From assembly GCA_013693795.1 (NCBI GenBank), contig CP059258.1, positions 637,623-653,420 of the forward strand: a stretch of DNA of 15,798 bases, read 5' to 3'. Source of the stretch: Anaerolineae bacterium (lineage in GTDB: Bacteria; Chloroflexota; Anaerolineae; SSC4; Amarolineaceae). This document shows positions 2,085 to 13,704 of this stretch, piece by piece. The notes beneath the pieces were generated by a model, which saw only the letters and a program-made list of their open reading frames with translations, was not told the origin of the DNA and made no database searches. Each line of letters opens with the position of its first letter. The first letter of the stretch is position 1. A program made the translations under genes and the position numbers.

Positions 2085-4700
2085 GTCCGGACATGCCTAA
2101 GCCCTGGAGAGGGATTGAAACTTGGCCAGGACCCGCAAGGAAGCGAGTCTGGCATCGGTCCGGACATGCCTAAGCCCTGGAGAGGGATTGAAACCGCTAG
2201 CGTCCTGCTGCGCAGGCGCGGCGGCGGTCCGGACATGCCTAAGCCCTGGAGAGGGATTGAAACAGCCTCCGATGTACTGCGTAACCTCGAAGAACTGGGT
2301 CGTCCGGACATGCCTAAGCCCTGGAGAGGGATTGAAACCATGGTGCTAGGCACCATCTCACAGAGGTACGAGGCTAGTCCGGACATGCCTAAGCCCTGGA
2401 GAGGGATTGAAACTCCCATTGACCGCCGCGTGCCAGAATTCATAGACATCGCGTCCGGACATGCCTAAGCCCTGGAGAGGGATTGAAACGCCTACTGAGA
2501 CCGCGACGGCGACGGCCAGCCCGAGTCCGGACATGCCTAAGCCCTGGAGAGGGATTGAAACCGGCGTACTGCCCACTCACAACTTCGTAACGAACCAGGT
2601 CCGGACATGCCTAAGCCCTGGAGAGGGATTGAAACCAGCAGGACCCACCGGGCCTTCCGTACCGCGCGCCCTGCGGTCCGGACATGCCTAAGCCCTGGAG
2701 AGGGATTGAAACCGAAGCTCCGCCAAATCCTCGGCCGTGAGACCGGGGAGGTCCGGACATGCCTAAGCCCTGGAGAGGGATTGAAACTGAACACCTGACA
2801 ATTCACCACGCCTTGCAGCTTGGTCCGGACATGCCTAAGCCCTGGAGAGGGATTGAAACTCGGTAGCACGGTCGTTCCCCGAGGAGACGTGGTCCGGACA
2901 TGCCTAAGCCCTGGAGAGGGATTGAAACCAGCAGTGCTGGCTCCACTGAAAGGTACGCATGGTCCGGACATGCCTAAGCCCTGGAGAGGGATTGAAACAC
3001 TACGCTGTCAACCTTTTCTCACGACTGTGGAGGAGGTCCGACATGCCTAAGCCCTGGAGAGGGATTGAAACTCCCGGGCGTTCTGCACGTCCATCACGGC
3101 GCCCATCGCGTGTCCGGACATGCCTAAGCCCTGGAGAGGGATTGAAACGTAAAACGTAACTGCTCAGCCGGCGGGTGCGTGTACGGTCCGGACATGCCTA
3201 AGCCCTGGAGAGGGATTGAAACTACCCGACGGTAAGAGCCATTGAGACTCAAGCCGTGTGTCCGGACATGCCTAAGCCCTGGAGAGGGATTGAAACCATA
3301 GACGGGGTGACCTGGGGGCCGGGGCCGCCTTCATGGTCCGGACATGCCTAAGCCCTGGAGAGGGATTGAAACCAAGTAAGTGTCAAGGGGTGGGAAATGC
3401 CTGAGTGGTGTCCGGACATGCCTAAGCCCTGGAGAGGGATTGAAACTTGGCCCGGTGGTGGGCCTGGTGACACAGGCTGTGGGTCCGGACATGCCTAAGC
3501 CCTGGAGAGGGATTGAAACTGTCGCTGGGGATCGTCCAGAATCCGTCGACGGCCGTCCGGACATGCCTAAGCCCTGGAGAGGGATTGAAACGAGTGAGGA
3601 GCGGAGTGCCCACCACGCCCGCCTCCCGGTCCGGACATGCCTAAGCCCTGGAGAGGGATTGAAACTGAACAGCGCCGAACACCAGTGCGGCAATCAGGGC
3701 CAAGAGTCCGGACGTGCCTAAGCCCTGGAGAGGGATTGAAACGAGGTAGAAGGAGAAGTTCCCGAGGTGCTGGACCTGAAAGTCCGGACGTGCCTAAGCC
3801 CTGGAGAGGGATTGAAACTTCGAGGTCGTGGGCCTTCTTCGGGTCCAGATTATCACGGGTCCGACGTGCCTAAGCCCTGGAGAGGGATTGAAACGGATAA
3901 TCGCCCGGATCTTGGCCACATCATCGGTAGTCCGGACGTGCCTAAGCCCTGGAGAGGGATTGAAACCCTGCATCTCGGCACGCATCTCGGCCAGCCGCTC
4001 TTGCGTCCGGACGTGCCTAAGCCCTGGAGAGGGATTGAAACTCGGTGTCTACAGATCGGACGCGCTGAAGGTCACGGCCGTCCGGACGTGCCTAAGCCCT
4101 GGAGAGGGATTGAAACTTCATCACCGACCCTCCGCCTATGATGCGTATTGCGGGTCGTCCGGACGTGCCTAAGCCCTGGAGAGGGATTGAAACGCCACGG
4201 GCCTGGGCCTCTGCTCGGCGATCGCGGTTCCTGTCCGGACGTGCCTAAGCCCTGGAGAGGGATTGAAACGAATAACTCCCTCTTGCAGGGCAGCGACCGA
4301 GATGGTCCGGACGTGCCTAAGCCCTGGAGAGGGATTGAAACCCTTGATGCGACTGATCAAGGCGACCAGACTCAAGGGTCCGGACGTGCCTAAGCCCTGG
4401 AGAGGGATTGAAACGGGGGCCGGTTGCTCTCGATCTGAAGAGGAACCCCGTCCGGACGTGCCTAAGCCCTGGAGAGGGATTGAAACGAATCAAGGCAAGC
4501 CCGACCAACAGCCTGCGTTTCATTGTCCGGACGTGCCTAAGCCCTGGAGAGGGATTGAAACTCGGATCCTCCGCAGACATCGTAATGTCTGCGCCACCGT
4601 GTCCGGACGTGCCTAAGCCCTGGAGAGGGATTGAAACTTACGGCCCCGCTTGGGCCGGTTATCCAGGCATTGGGTCCGGACATGCCTAAGCCCTGGAGAG
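2085..4700 (+). CRISPR. CRISPR array segment 1: 35 full repeats plus the first 27 bp of repeat 36
   Basis: The repeat is 37 bp. It starts with the perfect palindrome GTCCGGAC, carries CCCTGGAGAGGG (CCCT/AGGG stem, GGAG loop) and ends ATTGAAAC. Repeat starts include 2085, 2158, 2227, 2302, 2377, 2453, 2525, 2599, 2676, 2751 and so on to 4601, with repeat 36 starting at 4674. The average period is 74 bp; spacers are unique, mostly 35-40 nt, the shortest I measured being 32 nt. Repeats 1-22 and 36 read GGACATG; repeats 23-35 (3706-4637) read GGACGTG. Repeats at 3036 and 3859 lack one G of GTCCGGAC. The 3' handle ATTGAAAC is typical of type I and III systems, so subtype cannot be assigned without cas genes. 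Repeat 36 is interrupted after position 27 by an IS110 element. Confidence 0.98.
4562..4600 (+). repeat. CRISPR spacer containing a perfect 9-bp hairpin
   Basis: Within this spacer CGCAGACAT (4572-4580) and ATGTCTGCG (4585-4593) are exact inverted copies around the loop cgta. The protospacer source therefore contains a strong palindrome, as in a terminator or operator, and the crRNA could fold on itself. Confidence 0.85.
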
Positions 4701-4739
4701 CATCCTCTAGACAAAATGTCAAACCGGGCGGAGGGCGTG

Positions 4740-4910
4740 GTTATAGCCGCGCATGGAGATGTGCGGATTGGTGGTTATGTAAATGACCGGTGATCGGTCT
4801 CCAGCCGGTGAGGCGTTGAACGGGCAACGGCCGGCCCACCCAGCCTAGTTGACGGTATGCGCACACTGGGGTGCACCATCCGCTGCGGGCATACGGGCCG
4901 GGCCGCAGGA
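4740..4910 (-). ncRNA. Candidate bridge RNA / seekRNA of IS110 copy 1, guides matching the CRISPR repeat
   Basis: This is conserved noncoding DNA downstream of the transposase, read on its coding strand. CTGGAGA (complement of 4798-4804) equals the left half of the insertion site in the repeat. CAATCC (complement of 4765-4770) is complementary to the right half, GGATTG. Two guides that address opposite strands across the cut are what an IS110 target-binding loop requires. The first guide sits in the loop of an ACCGG/CCGGT stem, and the second abuts an 8-bp stem with one mismatch and a CTCC loop. The 5' part folds as GGCCCGGCCC with GGGCCGGCC around an inner GTATG/CATAC stem. That part holds GGATG (complement of 4877-4881) and ACTAG (complement of 4845-4849), which match the two element ends. 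The 7- and 6-nt target matches are suggestive and the 5-nt donor matches weak. RNA ends are estimates. Confidence 0.55.
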
Positions 4911-13026: not shown

Positions 13027-13029
13027 TAG
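11701..13029 (+). pseudogene. IS630-family DDE transposase, element A copy 2 (frameshifted as read)
   Basis: ATG at 11701 follows AGGAG (11690-11694). It is the second copy of the transposase described at 9077. Here the frame is lost at FNR (one G fewer than copy 1) and regained at [23 protein letters not shown] is shortened to RGFTW by 3 nt plus an adjustment, and the A run before KADRA is one longer. [16 protein letters not shown] and the block from LVLDNLAGH through [20 protein letters not shown] read correctly where copy 1 is broken. A break at LSALP is shared by both copies. The stop TAG at 13027-13029 again uses the TA duplication plus flanking G. Confidence 0.87.
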
Positions 13030-13704
13030 GGATTGAAACTAAAAACTAAGAACCGCGCCTGCGCCATAAACCCCATGTCCGGACATGCCTAAGCCCTGGA
13101 GAGGGATTGAAACTCGTAAAGTTCGTAGTTCATGTGAGGTCCGAAGTAGTCCGGACATGCCTAAGCCCTGGAGAGGGATTGAAACCCAAGTGGGATGCAT
13201 AGCGTGACCGATTGTTCTTGTCATGTCCGGACATGCCTAAGCCCTGGAGAGGGATTGAAACGAACCAGGTCGTTGGGGGCGTGTTTACCCCGCGGGCCTG
13301 AAAGTCCGGACATGCCTAAGCCCTGGAGAGGGATTGAAACATCGGCTGCACACCGATTGCAGCCGCCGGAAGTCCAGCCGGTCCGGACATGCCTAAGCCC
13401 TGGAGAGGGATTGAAACCTTCAACGGGGGCGTCTTTTCCCCGCCCGCGTGATGGTCCGGACATGCCTAAGCCCTGGAGAGGGATTGAAACTCTTCAGCCC
13501 GGTAGTTCCGGACTTCACGTTCTGCCGTGGGTCCGGACATGCCTAAGCCCTGGAGAGGGATTGAAACCGTCATTGCGGCCATGAGTGATCTCTCCTTGCC
13601 TGTATGTCCGGACATGCCTAAGCCCTGGAGAGGGATTGAAACTGTACCGAAGACTCCCAACCACTCGAGGTTGGGTACGTCCGACATGCCTAAGCCCTGG
13701 AGAG
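13030..13704 (+). CRISPR. CRISPR array segment 3: end of repeat 41, eight full repeats, first 26 bp of repeat 50
   Basis: It starts with the 10-bp remainder GGATTGAAAC of repeat 41. Full repeats start at 13077, 13149, 13225, 13304, 13381, 13454, 13531 and 13606, all of the GGACATG type. Repeat 50 (13679-13704) lacks one G and is cut at the same internal position as repeats 36 and 41 by IS110 copy 3. The other half of repeat 50 is not found downstream, so the distal end of the array has been lost. Spacers at 13341-13380 and 13643-13678 contain hairpins. Spacers at 13262-13303 and 13418-13453 are related to each other. Confidence 0.97.

Follow-up and report, generated by a model that had tools for sequence, protein, structure and literature searches.

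The stretch of DNA analysed here, referred to as the window, comprises 15,798 nucleotides (nt) of contig CP059258.1 (positions 637,623 to 653,420 of the forward strand) from the 4.69-Mb, single-contig and 77% complete genome of an Anaerolineae bacterium. It contains an array of clustered regularly interspaced short palindromic repeats (CRISPR), termed array 1, that is interrupted by three copies of an insertion sequence (IS) of the IS110 family. The locus is composed of the following features:

1884..2084, + strand: putative CRISPR leader of array 1, with ~80% identity over 204 bp to the sequence directly 5' of the first repeat of a second array, array 2
2085..4673, + strand: first block of array 1, 35 unbroken repeat-spacer units with the repeat GTCCGGAC(A/G)TGCCTAAGCCCTGGAGAGGGATTGAAAC
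4674..4700, + strand: first 27 bp of the repeat split by copy 1
4701..6657, - strand: IS copy 1, 1957 bp, with the transposase on the - strand and frameshifted in the assembly
6658..6667, + strand: remaining 10 bp of the repeat split by copy 1 (GGATTGAAAC)
6668..7038, + strand: second block of array 1, closing with a 27-bp half repeat (7012-7038) ahead of copy 2
7039..8997, - strand: IS copy 2, with transposase open reading frames at 8279-8788 and 7397-8083 on the - strand
8998..13029, no strand assigned: nest of IS630-like elements in the order A-B-A, located at the CTAG that ends copy 2, with CTAG at four junctions and with DDE_3 and HTH domains
13030..13039, + strand: remaining 10 bp of the repeat split by copy 2 (GGATTGAAAC)
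13040..13704, + strand: third block of array 1, closing with a half repeat (13679-13704) ahead of copy 3
13705..14712, - strand: truncated IS copy 3, which retains element bases 1-1007 as delimited by DNA search of the own genome
14713..15179, - strand: remnant of an IS110-family element that differs from copy 3 and is fused to it, with a Transposase_20 domain and a left end resembling that of the related locus L017

Type III-D-like cas genes are found ~3-18 kb from array 1. Array 2 (locus L010), whose repeat equals that of array 1, lies on the opposite strand at ~522-531 kb, ~110 kb from array 1.

The three copies in the window begin at 4701, 7039 and 13705, each directly after ...CCCTGGAGAG, which is base 27 of the 37-bp repeat; the half repeat ahead of copy 3 measures 26 bp, one base being missing nearer its 5' end. 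The first-pass annotation of this DNA had claimed that the copies share this base and a single orientation and that the remaining 10 bp of the repeat lie at the far side of copies 1 and 2. Re-reading of the junctions bore out both statements, with GGATTGAAAC present at 6658-6667 and at 13030-13039, in the second case past the IS630-like nest that separates it from the right end of copy 2 (8997). Copy 3 is cut at about 14712, so that its far flank is missing. Array 2 holds four further copies (a1-a4) at the same repeat base, three of them in consecutive repeats. The fourth array-2 copy (minus strand of L010, from 11068 downward) contains two short palindromic insertions resembling miniature inverted-repeat transposable elements, followed by decayed sequence. 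In the five copies for which both flanks are known, the flanks together make up one 37-bp repeat, split 27+10, without added duplication; only an AG (read as CT on the strand of the transposase) is ambiguous.

The element was found nowhere else in this genome. A DNA search, in which 40 of 86 first-look candidates were scored, returned nine matches, namely six long copies in the two arrays, two pieces of the fourth, interrupted array-2 copy and one remnant of 151 bp (78% identity) beyond the end of array 2. When the ends of the element were searched as patterns across the whole genome with up to three mismatches, seven left and five right ends were recovered, all inside the two arrays, and all seven left ends occupy the same repeat base in the same orientation next to different spacers. 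Neither search detected a copy of the element outside CRISPR repeats in this genome. The target site itself is just as restricted, as the 14-mer CTGGAGAGGGATTG, allowing one mismatch, occurs at 72 places in the genome, 72 of which are in the two arrays. The observation is real, and the reading given in the first-pass annotation, which had suggested tabulating flanks by element ends as a check, is right for this genome.

Assembly duplication of a single insertion, named at the time as grounds for abandoning that reading, is unlikely, since the spacers beside each copy differ and four more copies reside in array 2 on the other strand. Between the five full copies there are 0-8 substitutions and 5-11 gap columns, and this near-identity suggests that the element moved recently. 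The close resemblance, together with the occupation of three consecutive repeats, would also be expected if one ancestral insertion had been spread among repeats or arrays by homologous recombination or gene conversion. However, each copy is flanked by just 27 + 10 bp of repeat, the adjoining spacers differ and the two arrays are ~110 kb apart on opposite strands, which makes such a spread very improbable. Spacer acquisition by Cas1-Cas2 was rejected as an origin, the element lying inside a repeat and not between repeats.

Of the 50 units of array 1, numbers 36, 41 and 50 carry insertions (p = 0.023 under uniform placement), and of the 29 units of array 2, numbers 24, 25, 26 and 29 do so (p = 0.0006); the copy in the last unit of each array is decayed. 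This leader-distal bias could reflect either old copies followed by later spacer additions or selection against leader-proximal insertions. Insertion likely breaks the palindrome CCCTGGAGAGGG of the struck repeat, a probable Cas6 hairpin, and endangers transcription beyond it; loss of the hairpin and the risk to transcription would fit copies surviving only in leader-distal positions. One copy of the Thermus element IS1000 discussed below lies in the third repeat counted from one array end in HB8, which speaks against leader-distal placement as a general rule. It could further be argued that insertion was broad and that selection then purged the copies outside CRISPR repeats, given that leader-distal array positions are probably of low cost and that no copy was found elsewhere, but purging leaves unexplained why a single base and a single orientation were used in seven of seven repeats, and hardly any credence can be given to it.

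Assignment of the transposase to the IS110 family, proposed previously from the letters alone, is borne out by profile searches. The protein carries DEDD_Tnp_IS110 and Transposase_20 domains, PF01548 and PF02371 score above their gathering thresholds, and NF033542, the NCBIfam model entitled 'IS110 family RNA-guided transposase', scores above its cut-off. The transposase profile matches the structures of IS621 and ISCro4, with the DSG of the profile aligned to the ESG of the IS621 serine loop, and residues D36, E91, D145 and D148 are invariant in alignment A1. Precise, site-specific insertion with little or no target duplication, a trait of the IS110 family, is likewise seen in the 27+10 split of the five copies with both flanks. 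The known members of this family are RNA-guided.

Relatives in other genomes were examined at 27 loci of the same class, with flanks of at most 1.5 kb, some of them ended by contig limits. One of the 27 lies inside a CRISPR array (L044, apparently identical to the contig of L034). The element at L034 is a ~40% identical relative in an Anaerolineae metagenome-assembled genome, with a transposase above the PF02371 threshold and below the NF033542 cut-off. On the right this element abuts GAAGGGGATTTTGCCTTTTGCTAC, which makes up most of a CRISPR repeat differing from that of the window, and its orientation is that of the window element; the left flank is off the contig. Closer relatives with other targets were also sought: a contig search gave three loci, in a phylum sample of 400 genomes the own genome alone was recovered at E 1e-60, among the 46 genomes of the family of L035 only that locus's own genome was recovered at E 1e-50, and none was found in viral contigs. 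Proteins with 82-85% identity (P0003-P0007) come from records whose longest contigs measure 1.6-2.5 kb.

The longer non-coding region of the element lies 3' of the transposase gene, extending ~336 nt past the stop codon of the open copy as compared to ~200 nt upstream, an IS1111-like layout. It may encode a guide RNA of the seekRNA or bridge RNA type, for which the following parts are proposed:

4733..4833, - strand: putative seekRNA/bridge RNA target-binding region of copy 1, with CTGGAGA, the hairpin GACCG-CGGUC and CAAUCC (fold z = -2.43)
4798..4804, - strand: putative top-strand (right) target guide CTGGAGA of copy 1 (7136-7142 and 13802-13808 in copies 2 and 3)
4765..4770, - strand: putative guide CAATCC of copy 1 for the bottom strand of the target (left), within the 3' non-coding RNA (7103-7108 and 13769-13774 in copies 2 and 3)

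CTGGAGA is complementary to the top strand (the core T plus CTCCAG), while CAATCC equals the top strand just 5' of the core and hence pairs with the bottom strand; the putative arms thereby flank a CT core, in the order top-strand guide, then bottom-strand guide. With respect to chance, 120 of 5678 random CT sites scored as high with the guide pair in the same order (3.4% in either order), both arms reached at least 6 nt at 64 of the 5678, and 66 of 5000 shuffled RNAs attained the score of the guide pair. The two motifs are suggestive as target guides, not proof of them. L046 and L048 were not retained as guide cases, each having a single right-target match (7 and 6 nt, respectively) that was too weak.

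Taken at face value, these features describe an IS110-family element with a DEDD/serine recombinase that would be led to the CRISPR repeat by the element's own non-coding RNA, encoded downstream of the transposase. At GTTTCAATCC-CT-CTCCAGGG (the repeat on the transposase strand), CTGGAGA would bind the top strand and CAATCC the bottom strand, and a circular form of the element would recombine at the CT core, leaving the repeat split 27+10 and otherwise unchanged. Every repeat would then be a landing site, so that copies accumulate in arrays. We infer both the RNA and the way it pairs, as well as a circular intermediate and recombination at a CT core, and give the scheme a probability of about 0.76, reduced from 0.80 because of a recheck of the fold.

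Several results weigh against this scheme. The guide arms are short, with ~1-3% expected by chance. Guides are expected in loops, and the predicted fold places six of the seven bases of CTGGAGA in stems, four of the six bases of CAAUCC being unpaired; the whole 3' region folds modestly better than its shuffles (z = -1.78), another part hardly so (z = -0.43). The search for donor guides in the window element gave exact matches of 5 nt at most, none of them convincing, and an Rfam scan of the window yielded one sub-threshold match, none above a family cut-off and no bridge-RNA family. For an analysis of covariation no close relative with another target was present in the genomes searched. At L034 several matches of 6-8 nt exist, but the palindromic repeat leaves the arms indistinguishable and no guide pair is claimed. 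Lastly, the transposase is frameshifted in four of the five full copies, possibly through assembly errors.

The proposed arrangement resembles that of described elements. According to passages of Siddiquee et al. (PMC11187229), IS1111-type seekRNAs have the top-strand guide before the bottom-strand guide, and the IS1111-attC group (e.g., ISKpn4 and ISPst6) combines an IS110/IS1111-type recombinase with a downstream RNA whose top-strand guide comes first; the window element shares this layout as far as its putative guides go. That group targets integron attC and the window element the CRISPR repeat, both being repeated sites of another system. Unlike the IS1111-attC group, the window element has a transposase of ~467 amino acids (P0002), compared to 330-350 amino acids in the IS1111 group, and sub-terminal inverted repeats of the IS1111 type (7-17 bp) were not found in its terminal 45 bp, where the best match is 6 of 7 bp. 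The same passages describe IS110-type members with a downstream region, and the element is placed in the IS110 family and not filed as IS1111. IS621 belongs to the same recombinase family and has a CT core (PMC11208158), as proposed for the window element. IS621 and other IS110 elements that target repetitive extragenic palindromic (REP) sequences also share with it a repeated genomic target. They differ in targeting REP, and the bridge RNA of the IS110 group is mostly encoded 5' of the transposase, as opposed to a CRISPR target and a putative downstream RNA here (PMC11208160).

A parallel case from another phylum is provided by IS1000 of Thermus, which was sampled from four 50-kb stretches of HB8 pTT27 (200,000 of 256,992 bases) and from the best place in nine more of 15 matching plasmid records. 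The records H42, H43 and H49-H51 were left out, their identity values suggesting near-duplicates, as were additional places in some records; matching places number 24 in total. Of 13 left ends, two belong to internally deleted elements and were set aside, leaving 11 rows and, with each set of flanks counted once, 10 insertions. The two omitted elements, at L075 (27242) and L077 (2140), are short, and their IS1000-like left ends run into sequence of the CRISPR-repeat type. Three right ends lacking a left partner were also excluded: two in L075, both next to CRISPR-type repeat sequence, and one in L084, situated at the opposite end of a repeat and in reverse sense. Eight of the 10 distinct insertions examined are in CRISPR repeats and two elsewhere (L080 and L083); the context of the CRISPR calls is thinner at L076 and L079, with few repeat copies nearby, and at L081, where the array consists of three repeat-like sites. 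The T guide of IS1000 pairs at seven of seven positions, with G-U allowed, in 11 of 11 rows, GGGATTG facing CAATCCC or CAATCCT, and GGGGCTG facing CAGCTCC in L080. The B guide matches at seven of seven positions in L080 and L083, in a register shifted by one base from that of the CRISPR rows, two registers having been compared, and at 5-7 of 8 positions in the CRISPR rows, partly within the spacer. Guides that change together with the target are seen for IS1000 only. These pairings make it very probable that the IS1000 lineage is guided, its usual guide being one that fits CRISPR repeats.

The first-pass annotation had raised the idea of a lineage dedicated to CRISPR repeats. It stands for the element in this genome and for most of the Thermus IS1000 copies examined, but does not extend to the wider family, in which one of 27 loci of the class is in an array, nor to the two Thermus copies located at sites that match their own guides.

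Both elements also bear on whether the recombinase might read shape, recognising the hairpin or cruciform that palindromic repeats form and needing no guide RNA. Recognition of this kind would be in line with the window junction inside the palindrome, with the L034 junction at the loop of CCCC-GAA-GGGG and with the position of the relative at L017 in another palindromic repeat. It does not account for the avoidance of the second palindrome of the window repeat (GTCCGGAC), used by none of seven copies, or for the single base struck every time; moreover, IS1000 inserts outside the palindrome of its repeat and its site choice tracks the letters of its guide, including at the two non-CRISPR sites. 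Shape recognition is therefore regarded as unlikely, and guidance by an RNA is the best mechanism, with a strong case for IS1000 and a probable one for the window element.

IS1000A/B resemble the window element in belonging to the IS110 family and in their location, which is mostly within CRISPR repeats and oriented to the repeat in the same way. Their transposases are only distantly similar (36% over 132 amino acids), the RNA would be upstream and the core CA in IS1000, compared to a putative downstream RNA and CT core in the window element, and the junction is 4 bp plus the core from the 3' end of the repeat in IS1000 and 10 bp in the window element. Because transposase, RNA side, core and junction differ, CRISPR targeting is likely to be of separate origin in the two, and guide-RNA homing to CRISPR repeats is best read as having arisen at least twice. 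The targeted 3' part of the repeat ends in GGATTG(A/C)(A/G)AC in the targets of both elements. This part of the repeat also supplies the handle of the CRISPR RNA (crRNA). CRISPR repeats are probably a recurrent target of RNA-guided IS110 transposons, with at least two distant lineages (the Chloroflexota-type element and Thermus IS1000), perhaps three if L034 is counted, inserting into the conserved 3' part of the repeat in one orientation, and the RNA-guided immune memory would serve as a refuge colonised by another RNA-guided system.

An earlier study reports a 32-bp stretch shared by IS1000 and the CRISPR repeats of T. thermophilus and takes it for IS segments recruited for CRISPR (PMC6352166), an interpretation from which the present one differs. 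In Sulfolobus solfataricus, the archaeal IS110 element ISC1229 is described in part of another source as having a 3' flank with a CRISPR-repeat-like motif bound by the CRISPR-repeat protein Cbp1 (PMC10883916), and ISC1229 could be another case of a CRISPR guide or target. Insertions of IS elements in cas genes and of prophages or IS elements in CRISPR loci, known from passages of published reports, are likewise mobile DNA interrupting CRISPR-Cas loci; the paper on cas-gene insertions, whose own cases are IS elements in cas genes, mentions IS110 zero times, and its passages on such insertions do not bring up guidance to the repeat. Among the matches listed from the open-access literature, including PMC8047081, the passages obtained describe no IS110 elements targeting CRISPR repeats, subscription journals, ISfinder notes and supplements being outside this scope.

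The proposed mechanism would link two RNA-guided systems, a guide-RNA transposon homing to a guide-RNA immune array. An array offers numerous sites that are identical and non-essential, and this would account for the safe multiplication of such an element. Predicted effects on immunity include the loss of crRNA processing sites, the splitting of transcripts and the deletion of spacers between copies, and natural pairs of guide and target could be used in bridge-RNA engineering.

Among 77 spacers compared to the IS110 copy, no match longer than 11 bp was found, and one spacer matches the IS630-like elements (17 bp, 94%). One spacer of array 1 is present twice, at about 6741 and 6965, the two differing in the count of internal GGGCCAACA units. 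Just past the end of array 1, at 15422-15760, lies a gene for a DUF5674 protein.

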